Assembly (NCBI RefSeq): GCF_031157355.1
Contig: NZ_JAVIFT010000002.1
Span: 606,501-670,500 of the forward strand
DNA from: Hyphomicrobium sp. LHD-15
Lineage (GTDB): Bacteria; Pseudomonadota; Alphaproteobacteria; Rhizobiales; Hyphomicrobiaceae
Reading direction: 5' to 3'
Length of the DNA stretch: 64,000 nucleotides
The position numbers and the translations under genes are program-made. Shown in pieces: positions 10,279-40,720 of this stretch. The notes beneath the pieces were generated by a model. The model did not search any database. It was not told the DNA's origin and saw nothing but the letters and a program-made list of their open reading frames with translations. The stretch's first letter is position 1. Every line of letters begins with the position of its first letter.

Positions 10279-11382
10279 TCACGCTAGATCGAGGACGCGC
10301 AGAAGCGCGGCATTGACGTCGTCGACGTTGAAGCGGCGTTGGGCCTTGAGGCGGGCCGCGCGCGATCCGGCCGGCAGCAGATCGGGATTGCGCAGGTAGC
10401 TTTCCATTGCGATCGCGAGGGCGTCTGTGTCCGCAGGAGGCACGAGGCAGCCGCTCACCTTCTCATCGACAGTGTCGGCGCAGCCGGATGTGCGTGTCGT
10501 GATGACGGGCCGTCCGGTGGCGAGCGCTTCGAGCACTGAACGCGGCATGCCTTCGCGATAAGATGGATAGACATAGACGTGGGCGGCGGCGAGGGCGGGA
10601 TAGACGTCGTCGAGGTGGCCGAGATATTCGACGGCGCCGCCTTCGGTCAGAACGTCGGGCGAAACAAAATCGGGTTGGCCACTGGCTGGTCCGGCAAAAC
10701 GGAAGATCGCATCGGGCCACGTTTTCTTGAGGCGCTGGGCGGCGGCCTTGTATTCCAGAACGCCGCGGCGGCGTTCGAGCCGCGCGAGCATCAGGAACAC
10801 GAGACCCTTATCGCGTGACGGCAAGGGTGCGGCGGGAAACGCCACGAGATCGATGCCGGTGCCGGGCACGATGACAGAGGGAATATTGGCCGGAAGCAGA
10901 CCCTGCTCGGACAAGAACCGCTGATCGTCGCGGTTGTGAAAGACGAGCGCATCGCTGGCACGGATGGCGTGCGCAAAACGCCGGCGGCCGACGCTTTCGA
11001 CGCCATCACTCGGCAGGCCGTTGATCATGGTCACGACGCGGCGGACATCGGCTCGGCGCGCAGCCATTGCCGCGAGCACGAGCGTACGCAGGCCGAAGCT
11101 CATGACGATGTTCGGTTGCCAGTCCTTGAACTGGGCGATCAGGCTCATGATCGTCTGCCAGTCGCTGATCATCCGAAGCGAGGGCGGCGGGGTTTCGATG
11201 ACGCGGTGCATGGCGCCGATGCCACGCAGGATGCGGATGTGTTTTCCGGCGCCAGGCGGCGTCAGGCACAGAACGCGATGCCCACGGCTGATCAACGCCT
11301 CGATCAAGTCACGCCGCAGGATGGCGGCGGCCTCTGCCGATGGAGCGACGAGGGCGATCCGTTCCGAGATTGGTTGGGTCAC
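10279..11382 (-). CDS. glycosyltransferase family 4 protein
   Basis: A 367-residue GT-B glycosyltransferase of the GT4 type, resembling PglA-like enzymes that add an N-acetylated sugar to undecaprenyl-linked sugars. The N-terminal domain begins with RIALVAPSAEAAAILRRDL and the C-terminal donor domain carries FLMLARLERRRGVLEY and the EX7E signature EGMPRSVLEALATGRPVIT, with TSGCADTVD after it. No membrane segment is present; it likely acts at the inner face of the membrane. Translation starts at GTG with no clear ribosome site. It is transcribed after the MATE gene on the same strand, but the gap is 118 bases. Donor and acceptor are unknown. Confidence 0.8.
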   Translation of the reverse strand: MTQPISERIALVAPSAEAAAILRRDLIEALISRGHRVLCLTPPGAGKHIRILRGIGAMHRVIETPPPSLRMISDWQTIMSLIAQFKDWQPNIVMSFGLRTLVLAAMAARRADVRRVVTMINGLPSDGVESVGRRRFAHAIRASDALVFHNRDDQRFLSEQGLLPANIPSVIVPGTGIDLVAFPAAPLPSRDKGLVFLMLARLERRRGVLEYKAAAQRLKKTWPDAIFRFAGPASGQPDFVSPDVLTEGGAVEYLGHLDDVYPALAAAHVYVYPSYREGMPRSVLEALATGRPVITTRTSGCADTVDEKVSGCLVPPADTDALAIAMESYLRNPDLLPAGSRAARLKAQRRFNVDDVNAALLRVLDLA

Positions 11383-11500: not shown

Positions 11501-12907
11501 TCAGTCCTGGGCGGCTTCGAGTTTGATCGTGCTGGGGCCGACGGGCTCGAGGCGGGCAAGCAACTTGTCCAGAAGATGCGAGCCTATCCACACCGAGAGA
11601 ACCCCGAACAGCACCCCGCCCACCATGTGCCCGGCGAGCACGCCTTCGGCGCCGGCCATCAGGCCGCCGACGTACACAAAAGGAATGGTGCCAAGCGTGG
11701 CGCGGCCCCAGTTCAGAAGCGTCGCGTAGTGGGGGTGATCGAGTGTGTTGAAGACGGCATTGGCGACGAATAGCGCCCCCATGAATGCGAACAACGGTGC
11801 GAGCCAGTAGTTGAAGAGGGCGATCAAGGCGGCTGCGTCACCGGTGGCGCCGAACAGGCGCACGAGCCAAGAGGAGATAAGCGCGAGGATGACCCAGGCC
11901 ACCAGTGTGAATGCGACATTGACTCCGAGACCGAGCTTGAAGGTTTGTTTGACGCGCGCGGCTTCGCCGGCGCCGTAGTTCTGTCCGATGATCGGGCCGA
12001 TCGAGGACGAGAGCGCGTAGATGGCGCCGAATGCCACCGGCAAAATGCGTCCGATGATGGCCCATCCGGCAACCGCGCCGTCGCCGTGGACCGCAATCGC
12101 GGCCGTGACGTAAGCGTTGGATGCGGGTGTCGCGACGTTGGTCAGGATGGCCGGAACGGCGACTTTGGCGAAGGCGGGCACGTCGGCGATGAAAGCGGGA
12201 AGGCGCGGGCGGGCGATGAGGCCGTGCACCACAATGACCCCGTAGAGGCCGACGATCATGAAGACGATGCGTGCGACGACGGTCGCCCACGCGGCGCCTT
12301 CGATGCCGAGGCCCATGGCGAGAATGAAGATGGGGTCGAGGATGGTGTTGACGATGGCGCCATACAACGTGACGTTCATGGCGCGCCGCGCGTCGCCCAC
12401 GGAGCGGAGAACGGATGCCGAGGTCATGGCGAGCGTCAACGCCGGCATCGCGGGCGTGAGGATGAAGAGATAGCGCGCGGCAAGGTCGTGGGTTCGACCG
12501 GCAGCGCCGAGCGCGGTCAACAGCCAGGGAATGCTGACGTAAACCACGGCAGCAGCGAGTATGCCCGCGGCGAGATTGGCAAGATGGGCGTTTACCGAGT
12601 AGCGCGCCGCCCGCAATCGGCGCCCTTCGCCAAGCGCGCGCGACACCAGCGTGGTGGCGGCAATCGCGAGGCCGATACCGATCGACGTCGTCAGGAACAG
12701 GATCGAGCTGGCGTAGCCGACCGCGGCGAGCACGGCCTGGTCGTCGAGCCAGGAGAGAAAGACGATGTTGGCGAGATCGCTGAGGAAGATCGCGCCAAGG
12801 CCGATGCCTCCGGCTCCGCTCATGATCAGGATGTGACGCAGCAGCGATCCGGTGACGAACTTGGCAGGAGGACGTGGGGGTGCTTCTGCCCCTGCTCGGA
12901 CGGTCAT
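11501..12907 (-). CDS. MATE family efflux transporter
   Basis: A 468-residue membrane protein with about 12 hydrophobic segments arranged as two six-helix halves, typical of NorM/DinF-like multidrug and toxic compound extrusion transporters. The first half has LILIMSGAGGIGLGAIFLSDL-like residues after a short cytoplasmic tail, and the second half begins near AVPAILTNVATPASN, the second MATE repeat; SSIGPIIGQNYGAG in helix 8 is the typical MATE repeat motif. It would export cationic compounds using H+ or Na+. It starts at ATG with GGAACAA upstream. It is separated from recR by about 100 bases. Confidence 0.85.
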   Translation of the reverse strand: MTVRAGAEAPPRPPAKFVTGSLLRHILIMSGAGGIGLGAIFLSDLANIVFLSWLDDQAVLAAVGYASSILFLTTSIGIGLAIAATTLVSRALGEGRRLRAARYSVNAHLANLAAGILAAAVVYVSIPWLLTALGAAGRTHDLAARYLFILTPAMPALTLAMTSASVLRSVGDARRAMNVTLYGAIVNTILDPIFILAMGLGIEGAAWATVVARIVFMIVGLYGVIVVHGLIARPRLPAFIADVPAFAKVAVPAILTNVATPASNAYVTAAIAVHGDGAVAGWAIIGRILPVAFGAIYALSSSIGPIIGQNYGAGEAARVKQTFKLGLGVNVAFTLVAWVILALISSWLVRLFGATGDAAALIALFNYWLAPLFAFMGALFVANAVFNTLDHPHYATLLNWGRATLGTIPFVYVGGLMAGAEGVLAGHMVGGVLFGVLSVWIGSHLLDKLLARLEPVGPSTIKLEAAQD

Positions 12908-27944: not shown

Positions 27945-28177
27945 CTTTAGTTATTAGGCAGCAGGCAGGGCCGACTGATGTCCTGTCCGAGCGCTCGACG
28001 CATCGAGCACGGTTTCGAAGGCATTTGAGCCGCTCGCGAGCGGCCTGTTGCGAGCGATCAGGTGTGATCGGTCAGTCGTGAGAGATCAGTTTTTGTAAGG
28101 CGGCCCAAGCGGTGGTCCGGCGTGTATCGCGGGCTGTTTTCCGTCATGGGCAAACCACGAGCGGGAGACGTGCGGGA

Positions 28178-29437
28178 ATGGACAAGAAACTTGCGGATCA
28201 TTTGGAAGGCGCCGCATCACGCGTGGATCGGCGTTTGCCCGTCACCGTGCTTTCGGGCTTTCTTGGCGCGGGCAAGACAACGCTGCTCAACCACGTGTTG
28301 AACAATCGCGATGGTCTCAAGGTCGCGGTGATCGTCAACGACATGAGCGAAGTGAACATCGATGCCGATCTCGTCGAAAAGGGCGGCGCCAATCTCTCGC
28401 GCACGGACGAGATGCTGGTCGAGATGTCGAACGGCTGCATCTGCTGCACACTGCGCGACGATCTTCTGAAGGAAGTGCGCCGGCTCGCCGCGGAACGGCG
28501 CTTCGATTACCTGCTGATCGAATCGACGGGTATCGCCGAGCCGTTGCCGGTCGCCACGACTTTCGAATTCCGCGACGAGGACGGCCACAGTCTTTCTGAC
28601 GTTGCGCGCCTCGACACGATGGTGACGGTGGTCGATGCGGCGCACCTTCTCAGGGATTACTCCTCGCAAGATTTCCTCAAGGATCGCGGAGAGGTGGCCG
28701 GCGACGAGGACGAGCGGCCGCTGGTGCAGCTTCTCGTCGATCAGATCGAGTTCGCGGATGTCATCGTGCTGAACAAGATCGACGTGGCGGCGCCGCAGGA
28801 CGTCGAGGCCGCGCGCGCTATCATCCGGTCGCTCAACGCCGATGCCCGCGTGATCGAGACGAGCCATGCCCGTGTCGATGGCCGCGATATTCTCGACACG
28901 GGGCTTTTCAATTTCGAGACCGCGCACCGTCATCCGACCTGGTTCAAGGAGCTGAACGGCTTCAAGGATCACAAGCCCGAGACCGAGGAGTACGGAATCT
29001 CGAGCTTCGTCTATCGGGCCCGCGGTCCGTTCGAGCCCGCGAAGCTGCATTCATTCTTGAACCAATCCTGGCCGGGCGTCGTTCGCGCCAAGGGCTTCTT
29101 CTGGCTTGCGACGCGTCCGCAGTGGGTGGGAGAGCTGGCGCAAGCGGGTGCGCTCGTGCGGCACGAGGCAATCGGCTACTGGTGGGCGGCCGTGCCGAAG
29201 AAGAACTGGCCGCAGGATGACGATCTCGTCGGGCGTATCAACAAGACCTGGCATAAACTGTGGGGCGACCGGCGCCAGGAGATCGTTTTCATCGGAACGC
29301 GGGACATGGACAAGGCGGCGATGCTGGCCGCGCTGGATGCGTGTCTCCTGAAGCTTCCTGAGGATGGCGCCGTCGATACGGCGCAATGGGCGAAGCTGCC
29401 CGATCCGTTCCCGGAATGGGAACGCGATGCGGCATAA
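28178..29437 (+). CDS. CobW/P47K (COG0523) GTPase, putative zinc metallochaperone
   Basis: A 419-residue G3E-family P-loop GTPase. The Walker A is [17 protein letters not shown], the metal-binding CxCC motif is [11 protein letters not shown], the Walker B region is [14 protein letters not shown] and the guanine motif is LNKID. The C-terminal CobW_C domain starts near [16 protein letters not shown] and ends in [11 protein letters not shown]. Members supply metals, mostly zinc, to target proteins under limitation; the length and the WKKL-like end fit the ZigA/ZagA-type subgroup. It starts at ATG with GCGGGA close before. A Zur-like operator lies in the long leader; no known zinc protein is encoded beside it, so its client is open. 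Confidence 0.85.
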
Positions 29438-31074: not shown

Positions 31075-32118
31075 TTGATCTCGTTCCGGCCGGCCATGCA
31101 TCTCCTCAAGAAAGCGTGTGGCTGGCAAGAGCCGGATCTCGAGGCGACGGCGCCTGAGCGCTGGGTTATTGCTCCGAGCGACAAGCGGTATATTCAACCC
31201 GCGAAGTTCCTGCCGGGGCAGCTCGAACGTATTCGTGCGGCAGAGTTCGGCAGCGTCGAAGAGGTCGTGCGCGACCTGCGCGGTGGCTTCGAGGCTAGCC
31301 AGGGGCCGACCCTGGGCTTCAGGCTCAAGCATGTCGATTTCGTCGATGGGGTGCTCTATGCGCCAGGAGCGTTCAAGCACCTGCGGCGGCGCCAGCACAA
31401 GTATCCGGCCTATGTGATCCCGACCGAACGGGTCAGCGGGGCGCTCTACGAGAGCTGGATCGGCAACACCTGGTTCGGCACCTGGCTTTGCGAGGATTGC
31501 CTGACCTATCCGCTCGCCGAGCAGTATGGGGCGCCGGTGACGACCGCGCCGACGCCGAAAGGGCATGTCGCGACCTACGAGGTGAAGCTCGGGCACCGTC
31601 CGCGCCGGATCGAGCGGGCTCATTTCGACGAGCTCATTCTGTTCAGTGACGGGGCGCACAACGCGCACCGCAAGGCGCGGGCCGACCAGCTGCGCGCCCG
31701 CCTCGTCGCCGGGGTACCGATTGAGCCGAACCCGGGGGTGTTTCTGCTCCGCGGACAATCGGGCATGCGCCGTCTGCTGCTCAACGAGCGGGAGATTGCC
31801 GACAAGGTTGCGGCCACAAAAGGATTCCGGGTCCTCGATCCGATGAACAGCACGGTTGACGAGATCATCGCGGCTTGCGCGGGGGCCAGCGTGGTCATGG
31901 GCGTGGAGGGGAGCCAGCTGGTGCACGGGCTCATGGTGATGCCGCAGGATGCCACCCTTTTCGTGATCCAGCCGCCGGATCGAGCCGTCTCCGCCCTCAA
32001 GGTGATTACGGATCGCCAGGGGCAGGGCTATTCATTCGTGGTGGGGACGGGAAGCCAGGACGGGTTTACGGCAAGCTGGGACGAAATTGAACGTACATTC
32101 GATTTGATTTTAAACTGA
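31075..32118 (+). CDS. glycosyltransferase family 61 protein
   Basis: A 347-residue protein of the GT61 (DUF563) family, which transfers xylose or N-acetylglucosamine in eukaryotes and serves polysaccharide synthesis in bacteria. The C-terminal half carries the family core: VFLLRGQSGMRRLLLNE, GFRVLDP, and AGASVVMGVEGSQLVHGLMV, followed by TLFVIQPPDR. No signal peptide or membrane helix is seen. A TTG start with GGAG 10 bases upstream was taken; an ATG 7 codons later is an alternative without a clear ribosome site. It precedes by 253 bases the acetyltransferase-ligase-ACP-decarboxylase operon, and the two may jointly build a modified surface glycan. Confidence 0.75.
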   Translation: MISFRPAMHLLKKACGWQEPDLEATAPERWVIAPSDKRYIQPAKFLPGQLERIRAAEFGSVEEVVRDLRGGFEASQGPTLGFRLKHVDFVDGVLYAPGAFKHLRRRQHKYPAYVIPTERVSGALYESWIGNTWFGTWLCEDCLTYPLAEQYGAPVTTAPTPKGHVATYEVKLGHRPRRIERAHFDELILFSDGAHNAHRKARADQLRARLVAGVPIEPNPGVFLLRGQSGMRRLLLNEREIADKVAATKGFRVLDPMNSTVDEIIAACAGASVVMGVEGSQLVHGLMVMPQDATLFVIQPPDRAVSALKVITDRQGQGYSFVVGTGSQDGFTASWDEIERTFDLILN

Positions 32119-32371
32119 TTTTTTCCTCTTCATAACGCGTTAGGCGATATCGCCATTTTCGTTTGATCGGACCCCTCGGTAGGGTGCATTTTGCAACCTG
32201 GGCTTGCTCTCCGTATTTACTTAGTTGCGCGATGACGCGGCGAAAACACAGGTTTTTCCGTACGCGAACTGAAAATTATTCTATTATACCGAAGTCTATA
32301 TCTCTGCGTTAACATGCGGAGGTGTAGCTACCTATGTAAGCGTACGCCCATTGGGGAGAGATACTGGGCGA
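32119..32371. other. AT-rich intergenic region, probable promoter of the ligase operon
   Basis: The 253 bases are AT-richer than the surroundings, with stretches such as AAATTATTCTATTATACC around 32270-32290, and a small palindrome GGCGATATCGCC at 32143-32154. This likely drives the four-gene operon that follows. Confidence 0.4.
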
Positions 32372-32920
32372 ATGACGGATACGTTGTTTAATCTTGTCCG
32401 CGGCGACTACGAACGACACGGCGGGTCTCTTGCAAGCACCGCTTTCTTGTCGTTGTGCGTCTACCGCTTTGGTCGGTGGGGTCTTGCACTTCCCAGCCCG
32501 ATCGCGCGCAACGTGGTCAGTAAGGTTTACGGCGTCATCAATTTCGTGGTCGCGAACGTGACAAAGATCTGGATCCCGCCACAGGTGCAGATCGGCAAGG
32601 ACTTCCACATTATCCACGCGGAAGGTTCTCTCTCCATCCATCCCGATGTCGTCATCGGCGACAGGCTCGGCGTAATGCATAACGTGACGATCGGGACGAA
32701 CATGGATACTGCGTGCCCGGTTATCGGGAACGATGTTTTTATCGGGGTGAATTCGACCGTGCTCGGCGGCATAACGGTCGGCGATCGCGTGCGTATTGCC
32801 GCCAACACAGCGGTGACGACCGACGTACCTTCGGATTCGATCGTCGTCGGCTCACCGGCCAAGATCTATCCGCGTCTTGCTCCGATCATGAGCAAAAGCG
32901 CCGCAACCCAAGCGGCTTGA
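32372..32920 (+). CDS. serine acetyltransferase-like (LbH) O-acetyltransferase
   Basis: A 182-residue left-handed beta-helix acyltransferase of the CysE/WcaB type. After an N-terminal helical part, hexapeptide repeats run from about residue 70 to 165: VQIGKDFHIIHAEGSLSIHP, VIGDRLGVMHNVTIGTN and VIGNDVFIGVNSTVLGGITV, ending in VVGSPAKIY. It is shorter than E. coli CysE (273 residues), as are the acetyltransferases found in polysaccharide clusters. It could make O-acetylserine, or acetylate a sugar or the carrier-bound product of the neighbours. An in-frame TTG seven codons upstream was rejected. It is 43 bases ahead of the ligase. Confidence 0.75.
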   Translation: MTDTLFNLVRGDYERHGGSLASTAFLSLCVYRFGRWGLALPSPIARNVVSKVYGVINFVVANVTKIWIPPQVQIGKDFHIIHAEGSLSIHPDVVIGDRLGVMHNVTIGTNMDTACPVIGNDVFIGVNSTVLGGITVGDRVRIAANTAVTTDVPSDSIVVGSPAKIYPRLAPIMSKSAATQAA

Positions 32921-32963
32921 GGCGATTCCAACGGCACTTGTGACGAATACCGGAGAAACGGCC

Positions 32964-34577
32964 GTGAACGCGCTGACGACAAATTTCTATCAGCTGCTCG
33001 CGGACAATCTCAGCCTGCGTCCGAACAAGACGGCGTTGGTGGATGCCGACCGTTCCGTGACCTTCGCGGAAGTGGCCGCCGAGGTCGATCGGATCGCTGG
33101 CTATCTTCAGGCGCAGGGCATCCGGCCAGGCGATCGTGTCATCGTTCATCTTCGCAAGCGCATCGCCGAGGTCACGACGATGTTCGCCGCCTCCAAGGTC
33201 GGCGCGGTGGTGGTCAACGTCAACGTCCAATGGACGCTCGAACAGCTTGCCTACATCGCCGACGACTGCGGGGCGCGCCTCGCGATCGTGGAGCCGAGGA
33301 CGGCCAACGCGCTTGCGGGCAGCTCGCTGCCCCGGACCGTCTCACGCGTGCTGGTGGCGGGGGAGGCTCCCGATGCCGCTGGCTTCGACGGCTGGGCGGT
33401 TGCGATGGGCAGCTCTGGAGGCTCGGAAGTCTCGCGCCTCGATAGCGAGCTCGCGATGATCATCTACACGTCTGGCTCGACCGGTAAGCCCAAGGGCGTG
33501 ATGCTGAGCCACCGCAACATCGTGGCCGGCGCGCGCTCCGTGGCGCGTTATCTCAAGCTCGGCGAGGACGATCGGCTCTTGAGCGTGCTCCCGTACAGTT
33601 TCGACTACGGGCTCAACCAGCTCACGACGATGATGTTGGTCGGCGGCTTGGTGGTGCATCAGCCCGTCGTCATGGCGGCCGAGATTGTGAACGCGCTCGA
33701 AAAGCATGCGATTACGGGTCTCGCGGCGGTTCCTCCGCTCTGGGGCCAGATCGTTCGGTTGCTCGACGAGAGCCCGCGATCGCTTCCGGCGCTCCGGCGG
33801 ATCACGAATTCCGGCGGCAAGGTGCCGTCGAACGTTCTCGAGCGTATGCCTGCGGTGTTTCCGAACGTCGATGTCGTGCTGATGTATGGGCTGACGGAAG
33901 CTTTTCGTTCCACCTATCTCGCGCCGGAGAAATTTGCGCGGAAGAAGGGCTCTATCGGACGGGCCATTCCCGGCGCGGAAGTTTACGTCATCAAGCACGG
34001 TGAAGGCGTCGCCAAGCCCGGCGAGCAGGGTGAGCTGGTTCATCGCGGACCGCTCGTCAGCCTGGGCTATTGGGGAAAGCCGGAGGTGACGGCGGAAAAA
34101 ATTCGGCCCTGTCCCGAGCTTTCCTCGTTGATCGGAGACGAGCCGGTCGTCTACAGCGGCGATACCGTGAAGATCGACGCGGATGGGGACCTCTGGTTTG
34201 TCTCGCGCAACGACGCCATGATCAAGACGAGCGGATTCCGGTTGAGCCCCGAAGAGGTGGAGGATCTAATCCACCGCAGTGGCATGGTGGGAGACGCGGT
34301 CGCTTTCGGCGTCGCCGACGACGAGCTTGGCGAGGTCGTTCATGTCGCCGTTACGCCGCTCGATGGCTACGACGAGCGCGCGCTGACCAAGCACTGCCGG
34401 CTGGTGATGCCGCATTACATGATTCCGCGGGAGGTTCATGTTTGGCGTGGAAGCATGCCGCGCACGTCGAGCGGAAAGCTTGCGCGGCCGGATATTGTCG
34501 CAAGGTGCCGCGAAAGGCTGTCGCGGGGGGCACCATGTGACGCGGACGCGGGGATGAGCCAGCCACTGGCTGGTTGA
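32964..34577 (+). CDS. AMP-forming acyl/aminoacyl ligase (exosortase A-associated type)
   Basis: A 537-residue ANL-superfamily adenylating enzyme. Motifs in order: YTSGSTGKPKGVMLSH (A3), YGLTEAFRSTYL (A5), YSGDTVKIDADGDLWFVSR (A7-A8) and the catalytic Lys block MPRTSSGKLARP (A10). It would activate a carboxylic acid as adenylate and load the thiol of the adjacent carrier protein. The combination with an ACP and a lysA-like PLP decarboxylase matches the exosortase A-associated acyl-CoA ligase family (TIGR03098). The start at GTG 32964 was chosen because CCGGAG lies 8 bases before it; a GTG eight codons upstream lacks one. It follows the acetyltransferase and precedes the ACP by 23 bases. Confidence 0.8.
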   Translation: MNALTTNFYQLLADNLSLRPNKTALVDADRSVTFAEVAAEVDRIAGYLQAQGIRPGDRVIVHLRKRIAEVTTMFAASKVGAVVVNVNVQWTLEQLAYIADDCGARLAIVEPRTANALAGSSLPRTVSRVLVAGEAPDAAGFDGWAVAMGSSGGSEVSRLDSELAMIIYTSGSTGKPKGVMLSHRNIVAGARSVARYLKLGEDDRLLSVLPYSFDYGLNQLTTMMLVGGLVVHQPVVMAAEIVNALEKHAITGLAAVPPLWGQIVRLLDESPRSLPALRRITNSGGKVPSNVLERMPAVFPNVDVVLMYGLTEAFRSTYLAPEKFARKKGSIGRAIPGAEVYVIKHGEGVAKPGEQGELVHRGPLVSLGYWGKPEVTAEKIRPCPELSSLIGDEPVVYSGDTVKIDADGDLWFVSRNDAMIKTSGFRLSPEEVEDLIHRSGMVGDAVAFGVADDELGEVVHVAVTPLDGYDERALTKHCRLVMPHYMIPREVHVWRGSMPRTSSGKLARPDIVARCRERLSRGAPCDADAGMSQPLAG

Positions 34578-34600
34578 AGGAAAGGGGTAGAGGGAACGCC

Positions 34601-34837
34601 GTGAAACTGACCGAAATGAAATTGATCACGTTTCTCAATGGAACGCTGAAGATCGATGGGGAGCTGGTTGCCGATACCGAGCTCTTCTCTTCGGGTGCGC
34701 TCGATTCAGTTGCGATGCTGCAGCTCATCACGTTCGTCGAGGAAGAGGCGGGAATTCGCGTACGGCCGGAAGACGTCACGCTCGACAACTTCGATTCAGC
34801 AACCCGGATCGTGCGTTTTGCAGAAAGCCAATTGTGA
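34601..34837 (+). CDS. acyl carrier protein
   Basis: A 78-residue carrier protein. The phosphopantetheine site is LDSVAM, with Ser36 as the attachment residue (a DSV variant of the usual DSL). Acidic helix II (LQLITFVEEEAGI) and the C-terminal FDSATRIVRFAESQL follow the canonical ACP fold. It would carry the acyl or aminoacyl group made by the ligase. GTG is taken as start because GAGGGAA lies 6 bases upstream; an ATG five codons later is possible. It is one base upstream of the PLP decarboxylase start, a sign of translational coupling. Confidence 0.85.
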   Translation: MKLTEMKLITFLNGTLKIDGELVADTELFSSGALDSVAMLQLITFVEEEAGIRVRPEDVTLDNFDSATRIVRFAESQL

Positions 34838-34838
34838 C

Positions 34839-36077
34839 ATGGCCGGTGGCATTGCCACCATCGATCAGCAACTCGAGAATGCCGCGCGTGCTTTCGGCAC
34901 GCCCACGTATGTCTATTTCGCCGATGCCATCGAGACGCGCGCGCAACGGCTGCAGGCTGCGTTCGGGGGAAGGTTTGCGCTGAGCTATGCGGCCAAGAGC
35001 AATCCCAATCCGGGGGTGCTTTCCTGGCTGAAGGCGCATGTCGCGTTTCTGGACGTCTCATCGATCGGCGAGCTTCGGCTCGGAATCGGGGCCGGATGGG
35101 ATGCCAAACGGGCAAGCTTCACCGGGCCGGGCAAGCGCGAATTCGAGCTTCGTGAGGCCATTGAAAACGGTGTCGGAGAGCTGGTGGTCGAATCCGTGCG
35201 CGAGGCAATCGCGGCGGACCGGATCGCGGCGTTACTCGGGCGGGTGCAGGATGTGATGATCCGCATTGCCCCCGCACGGGTGCCGAAAGGCTTCGGAGAC
35301 CAGATGGCGGGGCGCCCGGTTGCATTCGGGATCGATGTCGAATGCATGCACGACGAGCTGCCGAAGATCTTTGCACTGGCGAACCTTCGCGTCATGGGCC
35401 TCCACATCTATTCGGGAACCCAGTGCCTCAAGCCGGATGCGATCTCGGAAAACTATCGAACCTTCATCGCCGTGTTTCGTGAAGTCTCAGAGCGCTATGG
35501 GTTCAGTCCCGAAAAGCTCGTGTTCGGATCCGGTCTCGGCATCCCTTATCACAATGGCGACGCACCGCTCGATCTCGACGCGGTCGCGAGCGGAATTGTC
35601 GACGAGCTCGATGCGCTCAAGAGCGAGCCGCGCTTTTCGGGTACGCAGCTCGTGCTGGAACTCGGCCGGTATCTGGTCGGCGAGGCCGGATATTTCCTGA
35701 CCCGCGTGATCTCGGTGAAGGACTCGCGCGGGAGCCGGATTGCGATCTGCGACGGGGGTATGAACAATCACCTGCCCGCATCCGGGCATTTCGGAATGGT
35801 CATCCACCGCAACTATCTCATGCACAAAGTGGGCGGCAGCGATGCAGGGCTCGAGAAGGTCGATCTCGTCGGGCCGCTCTGCACCTCGATCGACCGGCTG
35901 GCCAGCGGTGTCATGCTGCCGCGGGTGGAGGAGGGGGATCTCATTGCCGTGCACGGCAGCGGGGCCTACGGCCTGACGGCAAGCCCTATTCATTTCATTA
36001 GCCACGCCGCCCCGCGCGAGGTGCTCGTCGATCAATATGGGCAGCATGACGTGACGCGGGCGTTCGGCGCGCTCTGA
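34839..36077 (+). CDS. PLP-dependent decarboxylase, type III (exosortase A-associated type)
   Basis: A 412-residue alanine-racemase-fold decarboxylase related to diaminopimelate decarboxylase LysA. The PLP lysine is in LSYAAKSNPNPG (about residue 49), the phosphate glycines are in VFGSGLGIPY, and the cofactor/substrate block GRYLVGEAGYF lies near residue 275. The active-site cysteine motif reads GPLCTSIDRLA, whereas canonical LysA has CESGD, so the Glu that contacts the substrate is replaced and diaminopimelate is unlikely as substrate. Members of this family (TIGR03099 type) stand beside an ACP and an acyl ligase in exosortase A clusters. The start lies next to the ACP stop with no proper ribosome site of its own. 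Confidence 0.8.
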   Translation: MAGGIATIDQQLENAARAFGTPTYVYFADAIETRAQRLQAAFGGRFALSYAAKSNPNPGVLSWLKAHVAFLDVSSIGELRLGIGAGWDAKRASFTGPGKREFELREAIENGVGELVVESVREAIAADRIAALLGRVQDVMIRIAPARVPKGFGDQMAGRPVAFGIDVECMHDELPKIFALANLRVMGLHIYSGTQCLKPDAISENYRTFIAVFREVSERYGFSPEKLVFGSGLGIPYHNGDAPLDLDAVASGIVDELDALKSEPRFSGTQLVLELGRYLVGEAGYFLTRVISVKDSRGSRIAICDGGMNNHLPASGHFGMVIHRNYLMHKVGGSDAGLEKVDLVGPLCTSIDRLASGVMLPRVEEGDLIAVHGSGAYGLTASPIHFISHAAPREVLVDQYGQHDVTRAFGAL

Positions 36078-36175: not shown

Positions 36176-36252
<77 letters not shown>

Positions 36253-36693
36253 ATACCGACGTGTATTCAGCCCGACGCGCTCCCTTTTGGAAACCGTGTC
36301 GCGCCGCTCGAATGATCTGGCCAGCTTTTGATCTTGGCGCTGATCTGGGCCTGAAGACCCCGCACTGCGGGACGGCCCGTTCGAAGGAGCCGCAGCAGCG
36401 CGGCTCGGGAGGGTCTATAGCACGATTTTTGGCTTTGTGAACCCCACTCGCGCGGGTGTTGTGCATGACCGTGGATAGCCCGAACGGCCGCCCAGGAAAG
36501 CCGGGGCCAAAACGGGGATTCCGGCTTCGAATAGTCTCGGCTGCGGGGCTGTTCTTTCGTATAAGGTGGCCATCGATACGGCGGTCAGTATCCATGGCGT
36601 CGCCGCTTCCGTTGCATCGCTACGATGCCCATCGACCGAGCTTTCCTTTTCGAGGGCCGGTTCCTGGAGAACTCTAGGCGAGACTTCCCACGT
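36253..36693. other. intergenic region between tRNA-fMet and pabBC
   Basis: The 441 bases must contain the tRNA promoter (minus strand) and the pabBC promoter (plus strand). No confident promoter or operator was identified. The pabBC frame is open back to 36625, so up to 23 extra codons could belong to that gene. Confidence 0.4.
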
Positions 36694-38544
36694 ATGACAT
36701 CAGCCGACCCCAAACGCTCCCGCCAGCCTGCCGACAAGAACACGATGCGCGCGGGGCTCGAGGAAACGTTCGTCCTTCTCGACAACAGCTCCGGCCGGGG
36801 GGCGCCCTCTCTGCTGTTTACCGAGCCCACGGAGATCGTCTCGGCCGTCACGCCGGAAGAGGTTCCGGCTGCGCTCGCGCGCCTCGAAGCGGGAACGACG
36901 GCTGGGCTCTATGCGGCTGGCTTCTTCGCCTATGAGCTCGGGTACGTGCTGGAGCCCAAGATCCGCGATCTGCTTCCGGAAGGGCGGAACGTGCCGCTGT
37001 TGTGGTTCGGGCTTTATCGCGCCCCGCGCGAGATGAGCGAGCGCGAGGTCGATCATTGGCTTTCGACGCATACCCGCAGCGGTTCCTACCAGTTCACGTC
37101 GGTCGCGTGTGCCTGGGATGGGGCCGAGTACGAACAGCGCTTTTCGGCCGTCCAGGACAAGATCCGCGCCGGCGACATCTATCAGTTGAACCTCACTTTC
37201 AAGGCCCGGTTCCGCCTCGAGGGTTCGCCGCTCACCTTCTATCGCGACATGCGCCAGCGCCAGCGTGTGGCCTATGCGGGGATCGTCGATACGGGTGAGG
37301 TGACGGTGCTGTCCGCCAGCCCGGAGCTGTTCATCGAAAAGCACGGGCGTGTGGTGTCCACGCGGCCGATGAAGGGAACCGCGCCCAGGGCCGGAACGCC
37401 GGAAGCGGACGCGGATCAGCGCCGCGTGCTTTCGAGCGACGTCAAGCAGCGCGCCGAAAACCTCATGATCGTCGATCTGATGCGCAATGATCTCGGTCGT
37501 ATCGCCGAGGTCGGCAGCGTCAGCGTCACGGATCTATTCACGGTCGAGACCTATCGCACCTTGCATCAGCTGACTTCGGGCGTGAAGGCGACGCTCAAGA
37601 AGGAGGTCGGTCTTGCTGATCTCGTGCGCGCGATCTTTCCGCCGGGCTCCGTGATCGGTGCGCCGAAGATCCGCGCGATGGAACTGATCCGGGACTACGA
37701 AACCGAGCCGCGCGGCGTTTATTGCGGTGCGATCGGCCACATCAGCCCAAAAGGCGAAGCGCTGTTCAACGTGGCTATTCGCACGCCGGTCATCTTCCGC
37801 GACGGGCGTGGCGAGATGGGGATCGGATCGGGCGTGGTGTACGATTCCGTGGGTGCGAAGGAATACGCCGAGTGCCTGCTCAAGATGAAGTTCCTAACCG
37901 ATCCGCCGAAGAGCTTCGAACTGATCGAAACGCTGCTGCATGACGCCGGCTCCGGCTATTGGCTTCTTGAAAGGCACGTGAAGCGGCTCGAGGCTTCTGC
38001 CGCCTATTTCGGATACGCGTTCGACGAAAGCGCCGTTCGCGCGGCGCTGGCCGATGCCGTCAAGGGGCGTGCCGACGAACGCTTGAGGGTGCGCCTGCTC
38101 CTGGCCGAGGACGGCAAGCTCACGATCACGGTTACGGAGCAGCCGGCACAGAAGCCCGATGCCGTCATGCGCTACGTCATCTCGGAGACGCGGCTCGACA
38201 GCACGAACGCTTTCCTGTTCCACAAGACGACGCGGCGAGAACTCTACGATCGCGAGTGGCAGCACTATGCCGATACGAAGAAAGCCGACGAGGTGCTCTA
38301 TCTCAATGAGCGCGGGGAGCTGGCGGAAGGCAGCCGGACCAACATCTTCGTTGAGCGGGGCGGCAAGCTCGTCACGCCGCCGCTTTCGTCCGGGTTGCTA
38401 CCGGGGGTGCTTCGCAGCGAATTGCTCGCAAATGGCAAAGCCGTCGAAGCCGCGTTAACGCCCAACGATCTCAAGGGCGGCAATGTCGTCTATGTAGGAA
38501 ATTCGGTTCGGGGATTGGTGCGGGCCGAGCCGTTGGCCGGATAA
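36694..38544 (+). CDS. pabBC: aminodeoxychorismate synthase component I fused to aminodeoxychorismate lyase
   Basis: A 616-residue fusion for p-aminobenzoate synthesis in the folate pathway. Residues about 1-370 are PabB: RAGDIYQLNLTFKARFRLEG, STRPMKGTAPRAGTPEADA, NLMIVDLMRNDLGRI and the chorismate-binding block PPGSVIGAPKIRAMELI. The rest (from about residue 410) is a fold type IV PLP enzyme, PabC: GYWLLERHVKRLEASAAYFG, HKTTRRELYDRE with the PLP Lys, NERGELAEGSRTNIFV and the end SGLLPGVLRSELL. The PabB half makes 4-amino-4-deoxychorismate and the PabC half releases pyruvate. Such fusions are common in bacteria. The start is uncertain: ATGs at 36625, 36694 and 36745 are in frame. Glutamine amidotransferase PabA is not nearby. 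Confidence 0.9.
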   Translation: MTSADPKRSRQPADKNTMRAGLEETFVLLDNSSGRGAPSLLFTEPTEIVSAVTPEEVPAALARLEAGTTAGLYAAGFFAYELGYVLEPKIRDLLPEGRNVPLLWFGLYRAPREMSEREVDHWLSTHTRSGSYQFTSVACAWDGAEYEQRFSAVQDKIRAGDIYQLNLTFKARFRLEGSPLTFYRDMRQRQRVAYAGIVDTGEVTVLSASPELFIEKHGRVVSTRPMKGTAPRAGTPEADADQRRVLSSDVKQRAENLMIVDLMRNDLGRIAEVGSVSVTDLFTVETYRTLHQLTSGVKATLKKEVGLADLVRAIFPPGSVIGAPKIRAMELIRDYETEPRGVYCGAIGHISPKGEALFNVAIRTPVIFRDGRGEMGIGSGVVYDSVGAKEYAECLLKMKFLTDPPKSFELIETLLHDAGSGYWLLERHVKRLEASAAYFGYAFDESAVRAALADAVKGRADERLRVRLLLAEDGKLTITVTEQPAQKPDAVMRYVISETRLDSTNAFLFHKTTRRELYDREWQHYADTKKADEVLYLNERGELAEGSRTNIFVERGGKLVTPPLSSGLLPGVLRSELLANGKAVEAALTPNDLKGGNVVYVGNSVRGLVRAEPLAG

Positions 38545-39224: not shown

Positions 39225-39559
39225 TGGTCGCGCTCTCCCTCGAGGCTTTGTTTCTATGGACACTTCGACAGATGCGTTTGCGCGCAATCCTGTTCGACTC
39301 GCCCAACTGCCGGCTTATAGCAGGCAGCCCCGTAGTCTGACACGAGCAGGGCGGCAACACCCCGCGGCGACATGGCGCGGGGGCGAGATCGAATCTCGCC
39401 TTTGATCGCAGGCTGTGCTATTATCATATTGATTTTTATGCAATTTGTTGCCTGCTTTATTGACGTGCTTCGCGATGAACCGTTACCGCTCGTGTGCGTT
39501 TCGTGGTGGAGTACTCGTTATCGCCTGGTCCCGGATCAGCAGACCGAGATGGAGACGAG
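39225..39559. other. divergent intergenic region of the small membrane and repeat proteins
   Basis: A 335-base stretch with a hairpin at 39382-39400 and an AT-rich part around 39415-39460 (TGCTATTATCATATTG) that could be the promoter of the repeat protein gene. Confidence 0.45.
39382..39400. promoter_or_regulatory. 8-bp inverted repeat, operator or hairpin
   Basis: GGCGAGAT and ATCTCGCC are separated by CGA. It lies 160 bases before the repeat protein start and directly before an AT-rich segment, so it could be an operator next to the promoter. Confidence 0.3.
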
Positions 39560-40720
39560 ATGCTGCGTACCTGCGTATTGGCTTTCGTCACGGCGCTCTT
39601 GGCGTTTCCGGCAGGAGCGCTCGCCTATAGCGACGACGTGCGGAAAAATTGCCGTTCCGACTATCTGACGCATTGCAGTCAGCATCAGCTGGGCAGCGAG
39701 GGGCTATCTGCTTGCATGCGCAATGTCGGGCCCAATCTGCAGCCGGCCTGTATCGATGCGCTGGTGAAGTCCGGTGCAGCTTCGGGCGCGAAGTCCGCTT
39801 CGCCGGTGCCTGCCAGCGCTGGGCCGATCAACAAGCCGCTCAAGGGTGAGCCGGGTACGTTGACCGCTCAGGGCTCTAAGCAGACAGCGAAGTCAAAGCA
39901 GGCCGCAACGCCGGAGCAGACCGCGAAGGCGAAGAAGGTGGTGAAGGTTAGCCAGCCTGGGACGTCGCAGCAGGCGGTGGTGCCAAAGCAGACGTTAAAG
40001 TCGAAACAGGTGGTGAAAGCGACCCAGGCAGGGACGTTGCAGCAGGTTCCGACGCAGAAGAACGCTACGAAGCAGGCCGCGAAGGCCAAGCAGGTGGTCA
40101 AGGTCAGTCAGCCGGGAACGTCTCAGCAGGCTGTCGTGCCGAAGCAGGCCACGAAGACGAAGCAGGTGGTGAAGGCCGGCCAGACGGGCACGTCCCAACA
40201 GGCTGCGGTGCCGAAGCAAACCGCGAAGGCCAAGCAGGTGGTGAAGGCCAGCCAGACAGGCACGTCCCAGCAGGCTGTGGTGCCGAAGCAGGCCACGAAG
40301 GCGAAGCAGGTGGTGAAGGCCGGCCAGATGGGCACGTCCCAACAGGCTGCGGTGCCGAAGCAAACCGCGAAGGCCAAGCAGGTGGTCAAGGTCAGTCAGC
40401 CGGGAACGTCTCAGCAGGCGGCTGTGCCGAAGCAAACCGCGAAGGCGAAGCAGGTGGTGAAGGCTAGCCAGACGGGGACGGCTCAGCAGGCTGTGGTGCC
40501 GAAGCAGGCCACGAAGTCGAAGCAAGTGGTGAAGGCCAGCCAGACGGGAACGTCTCAGCAAGCTGCCACACAGAAGAAAGCTACGAAGCAGACCGTCAAG
40601 GCGAACGCATCTGGTGTTGCCAAGCAAACGGCGAAGACGGGCCAAGGCGGCAAGCCGAAAAAGGCTGCTGCCTTGAAGCACACGACCAAGGCAAATGCCG
40701 ATTCCGCCGCGAACAATTAG
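39560..40720 (+). CDS. secreted Cys-rich/Lys-Gln-rich tandem repeat protein
   Basis: A 386-residue exported protein. A signal peptide (MLRTCVLAFVTALLAFPAGA, cut near ALA-YS) is followed by a short cysteine module CRSDYLTHCS...ACMRNV...ACIDAL with four cysteines, of the type seen in many alphaproteobacterial secreted proteins. From residue 119 nine tandem units of 24 residues (one of 28) follow, each like KQTAKAKQVVKASQTGTSQQ followed by AVVP. The repeats are strongly basic, without aromatic residues, and end in a Lys/Ala tail. The function is unknown; binding to anionic polymers such as DNA, teichoic-like or capsular material is a guess. GGAG precedes the ATG. The array is recent in part (see repeat feature). 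Confidence 0.8.
   Translation: MLRTCVLAFVTALLAFPAGALAYSDDVRKNCRSDYLTHCSQHQLGSEGLSACMRNVGPNLQPACIDALVKSGAASGAKSASPVPASAGPINKPLKGEPGTLTAQGSKQTAKSKQAATPEQTAKAKKVVKVSQPGTSQQAVVPKQTLKSKQVVKATQAGTLQQVPTQKNATKQAAKAKQVVKVSQPGTSQQAVVPKQATKTKQVVKAGQTGTSQQAAVPKQTAKAKQVVKASQTGTSQQAVVPKQATKAKQVVKAGQMGTSQQAAVPKQTAKAKQVVKVSQPGTSQQAAVPKQTAKAKQVVKASQTGTAQQAVVPKQATKSKQVVKASQTGTSQQAATQKKATKQTVKANASGVAKQTAKTGQGGKPKKAAALKHTTKANADSAANN
39914..40573 (+). repeat. nine tandem 72-bp coding repeats (one 84 bp)
   Basis: Units start at 39914, 39986, 40058 (84 bases), 40142, 40214, 40286, 40358, 40430 and 40502. Units at 40142 and 40286 agree at nearly every base, including synonymous positions, and the following units at 40214 and 40358 do so in their first half, so a 144-bp pair was duplicated recently. 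All unit lengths are multiples of three and the frame is kept throughout. Confidence 0.9.

Follow-up and report, generated by a model that had tools for sequence, protein, structure and literature searches.

A ligase-carrier-decarboxylase cassette beside a GT61 glycosyltransferase in Hyphomicrobium, with a predicted role in omega-aminoacyl modification of surface glycans

The locus and its relatives

The window, a stretch of 64,000 nucleotides from Hyphomicrobium sp. LHD-15 (contig NZ_JAVIFT010000002.1, positions 606,501 to 670,500; genome of 4.29 Mb, completeness score 100%), carries on its plus strand, at 31075-36077, a cassette of five genes. Their products are, in order, a glycosyltransferase of family GT61, a transferase of the left-handed beta-helix (LbH) type, an AMP-forming ligase, an acyl carrier protein (ACP) and a pyridoxal phosphate (PLP) decarboxylase of fold III. 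A first-pass annotation of this DNA had given the same five genes in this order and on this strand, and Pfam family matches back each of them. The features are as follows.

31075..32118, plus strand, GT61 glycosyltransferase (PF04577, 56.1 bits; gathering score 27)
32119..32371, plus strand, intergenic stretch between GT61 and LbH (G+C 0.474 vs 0.624 for the window)
32372..32920, plus strand, LbH transferase with serine-acetyltransferase fold (PF00132 hexapeptide, 44 bits)
32940..34577, plus strand, AMP-forming ligase (PF00501, 284 bits; TIGR03098, 549 bits; pocket region similar to VinN)
33603..33605, plus strand, ligase D222, equivalent to VinN D230, predicted to bind the amine (gapless phmmer alignment)
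33906..33908, plus strand, ligase R323, equivalent to VinN R331, predicted to bind the free carboxylate (gapless phmmer alignment)
34601..34837, plus strand, acyl carrier protein, 78 aa (PF00550, 24 bits)
34706-34708, plus strand, phosphopantetheine site Ser36 of the ACP, in the motif LDSVAM
34839..36077, plus strand, BtrK-like PLP decarboxylase, alanine-racemase fold (fold III) (PF02784 Orn_Arg_deC_N, 112 bits; TIGR03099, 360 bits)
34995-34997, plus strand, PLP Lys53 of the decarboxylase
35880-35882, plus strand, Cys348 in GPLCTSID of the decarboxylase
36176..36252, minus strand, tRNA-Met, 3' end facing the cassette (ARAGORN)

The starts of the LbH (32372), ACP (34601) and decarboxylase (34839) genes were set as likely by comparison with homologues; the TTG start of GT61 also fits its homologues, and an ATG at 31096 is possible. 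Gaps of 19, 23 and 1 bp separate the LbH, ligase, ACP and decarboxylase genes, which form a tight operon. The first-pass annotation had this operon follow the GT61 gene: the tight packing holds for the four downstream genes, whereas GT61 lies 253 bp upstream and may be transcribed separately. The intervening stretch of low G+C may be the promoter region of the four-gene operon; a sigma-70 scan found no plus-strand site within it, and the promoter and terminator scans came out near background (3 vs 1.3 and 7 vs 5.7). The base composition of the whole cassette shows no foreign signature (61.5% vs 62.4%).

Related loci were collected by scanning a genome collection of 84,980 species with an alignment of the decarboxylase and two peptide patterns, so the true spread may be wider than the 68 loci recovered. 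All are titled Alphaproteobacteria except one bin labelled Ramlibacter. Four further loci and the window bring the set to 73, of which 71 are distinct (L001/L082 and L023/L043 are the same records). The ACP is found in all 73, LbH and the ligase in 71 each (L050 and L060 lack a ligase match) and GT61 in 65. Comparison of the neighborhoods shows the order LbH-ligase-ACP-decarboxylase to be kept in 70 of the 73 loci—the exceptions are L050 and L073, on contigs shorter than 4 kb, and L060—and GT61 stands directly upstream of LbH in 61.

The enzymes of the cassette

The best NCBIfam matches of the ligase and the decarboxylase are the exosortase A families TIGR03098 and TIGR03099, which have the status of 'hypoth_equivalog' models. 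Both proteins stay under the curated cut-offs: the ligase scores 548.9 bits against 592.35, and the decarboxylase 359.9 bits against 478.45. General models score lower still, with 299 bits for acyl-CoA synthetases on the ligase and 242 bits (cut-off 297.9) for the LysA model TIGR01048 on the decarboxylase.

When the pocket region of the ligase (33432-33974) is compared with solved sequences, VinN comes out on top of 173 distinct matches with 82.0 bits and a gapless alignment, followed by a peptide synthetase at 81.4 bits (two domains summed) and then by a match at 70.5 bits. VinN residues D230, F231, S299, K330 and R331 align with ligase residues D222, Y223, S291, F322 and R323, and no gap interrupts the region of the short beta13-beta14 loop. 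VinN is described as taking 3-methylaspartate as a beta-amino acid, with D230 holding the amine and with a pocket shaped by F231, S299 and a loop containing K330 and R331 (PMC11253843). R331, and hence R323 of the ligase, probably binds the free carboxylate. The equivalents of D222 and R323 are invariant in 84 of 84 ligases: 70/70 from cassettes, 7/7 linked to exosortases and 7/7 other relatives. The residue counts for cassettes cover 70 of the 71 ligases, including the window and two duplicate records and leaving out the cut L073. Five readable stretches out of six other AMP ligases in the same genome (L133 left out) served as a control: none of them has the Arg or the TNS motif, and the Asp is kept in two. 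These comparisons make the enzyme probably an amino acid-ACP ligase; loading of an amino acid onto the ACP, already proposed in the first-pass annotation, is well supported.

The carrier serine in LDSVAM, pointed out in the same annotation, has a Ser equivalent in 73/73 ACPs, and the nearest named carrier models are OlsHI and DltC. Among solved structures, the decarboxylase is closest in sequence to two BtrK entries (224 bits) and then to a diaminopimelate decarboxylase (147 bits), whereas solved lysine and ornithine decarboxylases reach at most 76 bits. BtrK is described as decarboxylating glutamate bound to the carrier BtrI, which gives gamma-aminobutyrate (GABA)-BtrI (PMC7857480). We rejected the possibility of a LysA duplicate: the LysA score is low, a separate true LysA (480 bits) is encoded elsewhere in the genome, BtrK is closer than diaminopimelate decarboxylase, and the motif reads CTSID, not C-E-[ST]-x-D. 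A substrate other than diaminopimelate, as held in the first-pass annotation, is probable. The motif GPLCTSIDRL that it singled out is present but not special to the locus, since GPLCT[SP][IL]D occurs in 71/71 cassette decarboxylases (L050 and L073 left out), GPLCTPED in BtrK and GCLCTP[LI]D in 7/7 exosortase-linked enzymes, as opposed to C-E-[ST]-x-D in LysA-like enzymes. Because BtrK and the exosortase-linked enzymes share the motif, the loss of the CESGD-type Glu is a trait of the whole group and not of the window locus. Closest to BtrK, set apart from LysA and equipped with GPLCT, the window enzyme fits a putative BtrK-type aminoacyl-ACP decarboxylase. PLP decarboxylases of such a type require free alpha-amino and alpha-carboxyl groups; the substrate on the ACP must therefore hang by its side-chain carboxylate, which agrees with the VinN-like pocket of the ligase.

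The best NCBIfam model for the LbH protein is EpsC, with 88 bits against a cut-off of 150. In Foldseek, all 50 matches shown for its best AlphaFold model are serine acetyltransferases, with similar N-terminal helices, and His79, His90 and His103 are invariant in 71/71 members. As reference columns we used D92, D157, H158, R192 and H193, which we take to be the serine-binding positions of CysE. Among the 71 LbH proteins, the D92 column holds Asp in one, D157 in none, R192 Arg in four and H193 His in none. Most members have Trp, Ile/Val, Gly and Ala in these four columns, and at the catalytic H158 the residue is His in 63 and Asn in eight. The replaced pocket columns disfavor a serine O-acetyltransferase making O-acetylserine. 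The LbH protein is probably an acyltransferase whose acceptor has changed; its donor may be the ACP thioester.

The GT61 gene is the sole PF04577 match in the genome at E<=0.001. The best Foldseek matches of its AlphaFold model, which has a predicted local distance difference test (pLDDT) score of 91.5, are POMGNT2 structures (E 4e-8); the search indicates the family fold but no sugar specificity, and searching its sequence against solved structures brought no useful match.

Genomic context and relation to exosortase A

Several loci lie near genes of glycan synthesis. In the Neorhizobium record L001, the cassette is placed in a polysaccharide cluster (bacterial sugar transferase, polysaccharide export protein, GT4 and GT2 genes); unannotated open reading frame (ORF) families found where these genes lie come back in 14-16 of 68 loci. 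Upstream of the cassette, the Paracoccus record L002 carries gmd together with genes for GDP-fucose synthase and a DegT aminotransferase, and a DegT aminotransferase is also found near the cassette of a Ruegeria locus (L030). Other scanned loci have unrelated neighbors, such as a sugar ABC transporter in L034. An esterase-like gene detected by tblastn lies upstream in 34/73 loci, not including the window. Apart from it, the recurrent neighbor ORF families look like antisense shadows of the cassette or lineage synteny, an example of the latter being the Mrp antiporter annotated in L002. The window genome encodes two polysaccharide export proteins elsewhere. The earlier statement that no glycan-chain gene is seen here needs a caveat, as the annotated subset of window ORFs includes two such candidates:

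10279-11382, GT4, about 18 kb from the cassette (window annotation)
11501-12907, MatE-family protein, about 18 kb from the cassette (window annotation)

A glycan is a likely, if unproven, target of the cassette. A literature search for beta-alanyl- or GABA-bearing polysaccharides gave nothing usable. In the three loci where the esterase-like gene was scanned for domains (L002 7271-8434, L003 5316-6431 and L042 3373-4311), it lies upstream of GT61 and has a CE2_N domain; this enzyme may remove or shift acyl groups of that glycan.

The first-pass annotation had placed the ligase and decarboxylase in exosortase A families and had noted that neither an exosortase nor a PEP-CTERM protein is seen. 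The latter observation extends to the whole genome: PF09721 (exosortase) and PF07589 (PEP-CTERM) both give 0 matches at E<=1, the second model being short and insensitive. Since this PEP-CTERM model is described as missing many instances (PMC1569441), the absence of PEP-CTERM proteins is a weak test. As to the families, TIGR03098 and TIGR03099 are indeed the nearest named ones, but membership does not follow. We searched for exosortase at E<=0.001 in 49 genomes (50 of the 68 loci were selected, and L051 dropped out) and found it in 17, with none at this threshold in the other 32. A TIGR03099 search at E<=1e-60 in the 17 genomes gave cassette-type matches of 347-402 bits. Seven of these genomes, all sphingomonads, contain a TIGR03099 member over the cut-off (545-586 bits) on the exosortase contig. 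It stands about 9-10 kb from the exosortase in six of them and 57 kb away in the seventh; all seven also have a member of cassette type (358-402 bits), which lies on a different contig. A decarboxylase tree (n=42: 20 of the 71 cassette enzymes, 7 exosortase-linked, 12 others, BtrK and 2 further genes of the window genome) joins the cassette decarboxylases into a clade at 100/100, and the exosortase-linked ones together with a Sinorhizobium meliloti pSymB gene into a clade at 100/99. The root is arbitrary, and the exact place of BtrK is unsure because it is flagged as a long branch, as are L004 and one fragment from the window genome. Given the missed cut-offs, the separate clade and the seven genomes in which the two forms coexist, the sequences suggest that the cassette is best called a sister family, not an exosortase A set minus its exosortase. 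A literature search combining exosortase, ligase and decarboxylase returned nothing on topic, judged by titles; no paper naming TIGR03098 or TIGR03099 was found in a search that mostly did not extend to subscription journals, so such a paper in print is not excluded.

Three further relatives deserve mention. Ligase-decarboxylase pairs lie beside polysaccharide genes on S. meliloti pSymB (L006 8316-11131) and on a Shinella plasmid (L005 7111-10161), and the annotation of the stretches shown around them lists no exosortase; the S. meliloti pair is annotated as exosortase A-associated, a label whose use may reach beyond the range of exosortases themselves. On a Tritonibacter mobilis plasmid (L004 8962-11400), a decarboxylase relative of 39% identity forms part of what appears to be a fusion gene, annotated as acyl-CoA dehydrogenase; the cluster around it has ketosynthase III (KS-III), ACP, AMP-ligase and P450 genes.

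Within Hyphomicrobium, a cassette-type decarboxylase is present in two of eight genomes. The tRNA-Met gene stands beside pabBC in 7/7 loci compared (G003 left out), and the cassette is found at its 3' side in two of them, the window and Hyphomicrobium zavarzinii (G004). The tRNA would thus be the boundary of a possible insertion site, with the cassette present or absent as a unit; the distribution fits gain as a unit beside the tRNA gene, or loss in other Hyphomicrobium. Beyond the tRNA, positions 36625-38544 of the window encode aminodeoxychorismate synthase component I and a C-terminal stretch matching PRK07546 in one frame, a PabB-PabC-like fusion. They are followed at 39494-40720 by a Lys/Gln/Ala-rich open frame with many near-repeats like KAKQVVKxxQxGTSQQ and no Pfam match. 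Upstream of the cassette, at 28112-29437, lies a gene for the zinc metallochaperone GTPase ZigA (616.5 bits vs an NCBIfam cut-off of 600); nothing in stretch L023 of H. zavarzinii matches it.

Predicted pathway, alternatives and known systems

We regard it as fairly probable that the cassette builds an omega-aminoacyl thioester on a carrier of its own and uses it to modify a glycan. The ligase would adenylate the side-chain carboxylate of an acidic amino acid, with D222 gripping the amine and R323 the free alpha-carboxylate, and load the amino acid on Ser36 of the ACP; L-aspartate is the most likely substrate, favored over glutamate. The BtrK-like decarboxylase would then strip the alpha-carboxylate from the ACP-bound amino acid, leaving beta-alanyl-S-ACP (or 4-aminobutyryl-S-ACP). 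Judging from residues and family matches, these two steps are likely. To the subsequent transfer, for which gene order and fold speak, we lean with less assurance: the LbH protein, of serine acetyltransferase fold with the serine pocket gone, would move the group to a sugar amine or hydroxyl, and GT61 would place or receive that sugar in a surface glycan. The first-pass annotation had named neither the amino acid, nor the carboxylate used, nor the BtrK and VinN precedents; its observation is confirmed and its interpretation partly supported.

A number of results weigh against this pathway. Over the full length of the ligase, VinN is outscored by LgrA and another peptide synthetase (both as two-domain sums) and by FadD5. 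The S291 column is Ser or Thr, with Thr in 43 of 70 cassette ligases, the Y223 column is Tyr or Ala, with Ala in 40 of 70, and VinN K330 is not kept in any relative compared; owing to these changes, the substrate may vary or differ. The precedents themselves disagree on chain length, with BtrK using Glu and VinN an Asp derivative. Only one of the five AlphaFold models of LbH is confident (pLDDT 85.3, against 56-63 for the other four), and the enzyme could take acetyl-CoA instead of the ACP thioester. The TM-score between GT61 and POMGNT2 is just 0.42-0.46, the window has no glycan polymerization or export gene adjacent to the cassette, and the decarboxylase is present in 73/73 loci by construction, as the loci were fetched through it.

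Another reading takes the cassette for a small specialized-metabolite pathway making a VinN/VinO-like starter unit. It draws on the closest characterized relatives of the ligase pocket and the decarboxylase, which come from antibiotic pathways, on the cluster around the Tritonibacter relative, and on other open frames of the Hyphomicrobium genome with nonribosomal peptide synthetase (NRPS)-like A5 motifs. We consider it unlikely, as the cassette has no polyketide synthase (PKS) or NRPS gene, GT61 so often stands directly upstream, and the Neorhizobium cassette lies in a polysaccharide cluster. Quite unlikely, too, is a decarboxylase of ornithine, lysine or polyamine type whose substrate is an amino acid in free form; the ligase would then activate some unrelated acyl group to be joined to the resulting amine. 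The fold is common to ornithine and lysine decarboxylases, and LbH enzymes often use CoA esters; yet the solved lysine and ornithine enzymes score far below BtrK, and the ligase keeps its amine-binding Asp. The clade containing BtrK is, moreover, described as unrelated to polyamine metabolism (PMC7857480).

That the cassette is a degraded or relocated exosortase A accessory set, of the same family and function, in a genome that lost its exosortase seems improbable to us, although part of the survey points this way. Besides the best NCBIfam matches, there are the other ten of the 17 genomes with an exosortase, where the TIGR03099 search at E<=1e-60 gives nothing but the cassette-type gene. A strong exosortase, at 201-236 bits, is present in four of these ten (G086, G090, G093 and G123), with the cassette-type gene on another contig, and in G112, G125 and G093 that gene has a weak exosortase (48-65 bits) less than 30 kb away. 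Against this stand both scores below cut-off, the separate clades, the seven genomes holding the two forms on different contigs, and the 32 of 49 genomes without an exosortase match; scores, clade and paralogues largely refute a remnant as far as the family is concerned. Least of all do we expect the ACP-bound amino acid to be used undecarboxylated, as in a DltA/DltC-like system, with the decarboxylase acting as a racemase or on another substrate. Such a very improbable arrangement would suit the carrier models OlsHI and DltC, but ligase, ACP and decarboxylase genes occur together in 70/73 loci (chosen by the decarboxylase), and the nearest solved relative of the decarboxylase works on ACP thioesters.

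More tentatively, and with slightly less than even confidence, we propose that the ligase-ACP-PLP decarboxylase trio of the cassette and of exosortase A systems forms one omega-aminoacyl-ACP synthase superfamily, its members making beta-alanyl- or 4-aminobutyryl-ACP with which free amines are put on surface polysaccharides. If true, this would be a general route for changing exopolysaccharide charge, with an origin shared with antibiotic starter-unit chemistry; we know of no precedent for omega-aminoacyl-ACP decoration of surface polysaccharides as such a route. The main value of the pathway predicted for the cassette is that it would extend to the uncharacterized ligase-decarboxylase pair of exosortase A systems. 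The link to VinN and BtrK provides testable chemistry, the conversion of Asp or Glu to a beta-alanyl or GABA thioester, and amine-bearing substituents are predicted on the surface glycans of Neorhizobium, Paracoccus, Novosphingobium and Hyphomicrobium.

The chemistry predicted for the cassette is one known from antibiotic pathways, here in another setting. BtrJ-BtrI-BtrK, which provides the butirosin side chain, shares with the cassette as predicted a small standalone ACP on which an amino acid is loaded and then decarboxylated by a fold-III PLP enzyme, as well as the GPLCT motif; BtrK and the cassette decarboxylases are related only distantly. The butirosin loader BtrJ is not an AMP-forming ligase of the cassette type, and an aminoglycoside receives the product, with BtrG and BtrH taking part. 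VinN-VinL-VinO, FlvO and PacE-PacC-PacF resemble the cassette in the pocket of the AMP ligase, in the use of a standalone ACP and in a decarboxylase whose product, for the cassette a predicted one, is a beta-amino acyl-ACP; VinN differs from the cassette ligases at K330 and partly at F231 and S299, and we know of no GT61 or LbH gene in macrolactam starter systems. For macrolactams, the proposal is that 3-methylaspartate is put on a standalone ACP by an adenylation enzyme before a decarboxylase yields the beta-amino acyl unit; the steps of the Pac pathway are likewise proposals, and VinO/FlvO-type decarboxylases are named for 3-amino-2-methylpropionate and beta-alanine starters (PMC10662134). 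The next steps in the same account, unlike those of the cassette, involve an Ala-protecting ligase and an acyltransferase to the PKS (PMC10662134).

CysE and EpsC resemble LbH in fold and N-terminal helices and differ in the serine-pocket columns, which are replaced in most LbH proteins, and in the EpsC cut-off that LbH fails to reach. Envelope aminoacylation by the Dlt and Alm systems follows a similar ligase-carrier-transferase logic, with different transferases and, to our knowledge, no decarboxylase; AlmE is listed with glycine and lipopolysaccharide modification (PMC11253843). Between the window proteins and the ligase and decarboxylase of exosortase A systems, identity is 38-44%, and the Asp and Arg of the ligase are the same in 7/7. 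The exosortase-linked decarboxylases form a separate clade, with GCLCTP in place of GPLCT[SP]; the cassette proteins stay under the cut-offs, and the LbH and GT61 partners are the cassette's own, mostly in genomes where no exosortase was found (32/49).

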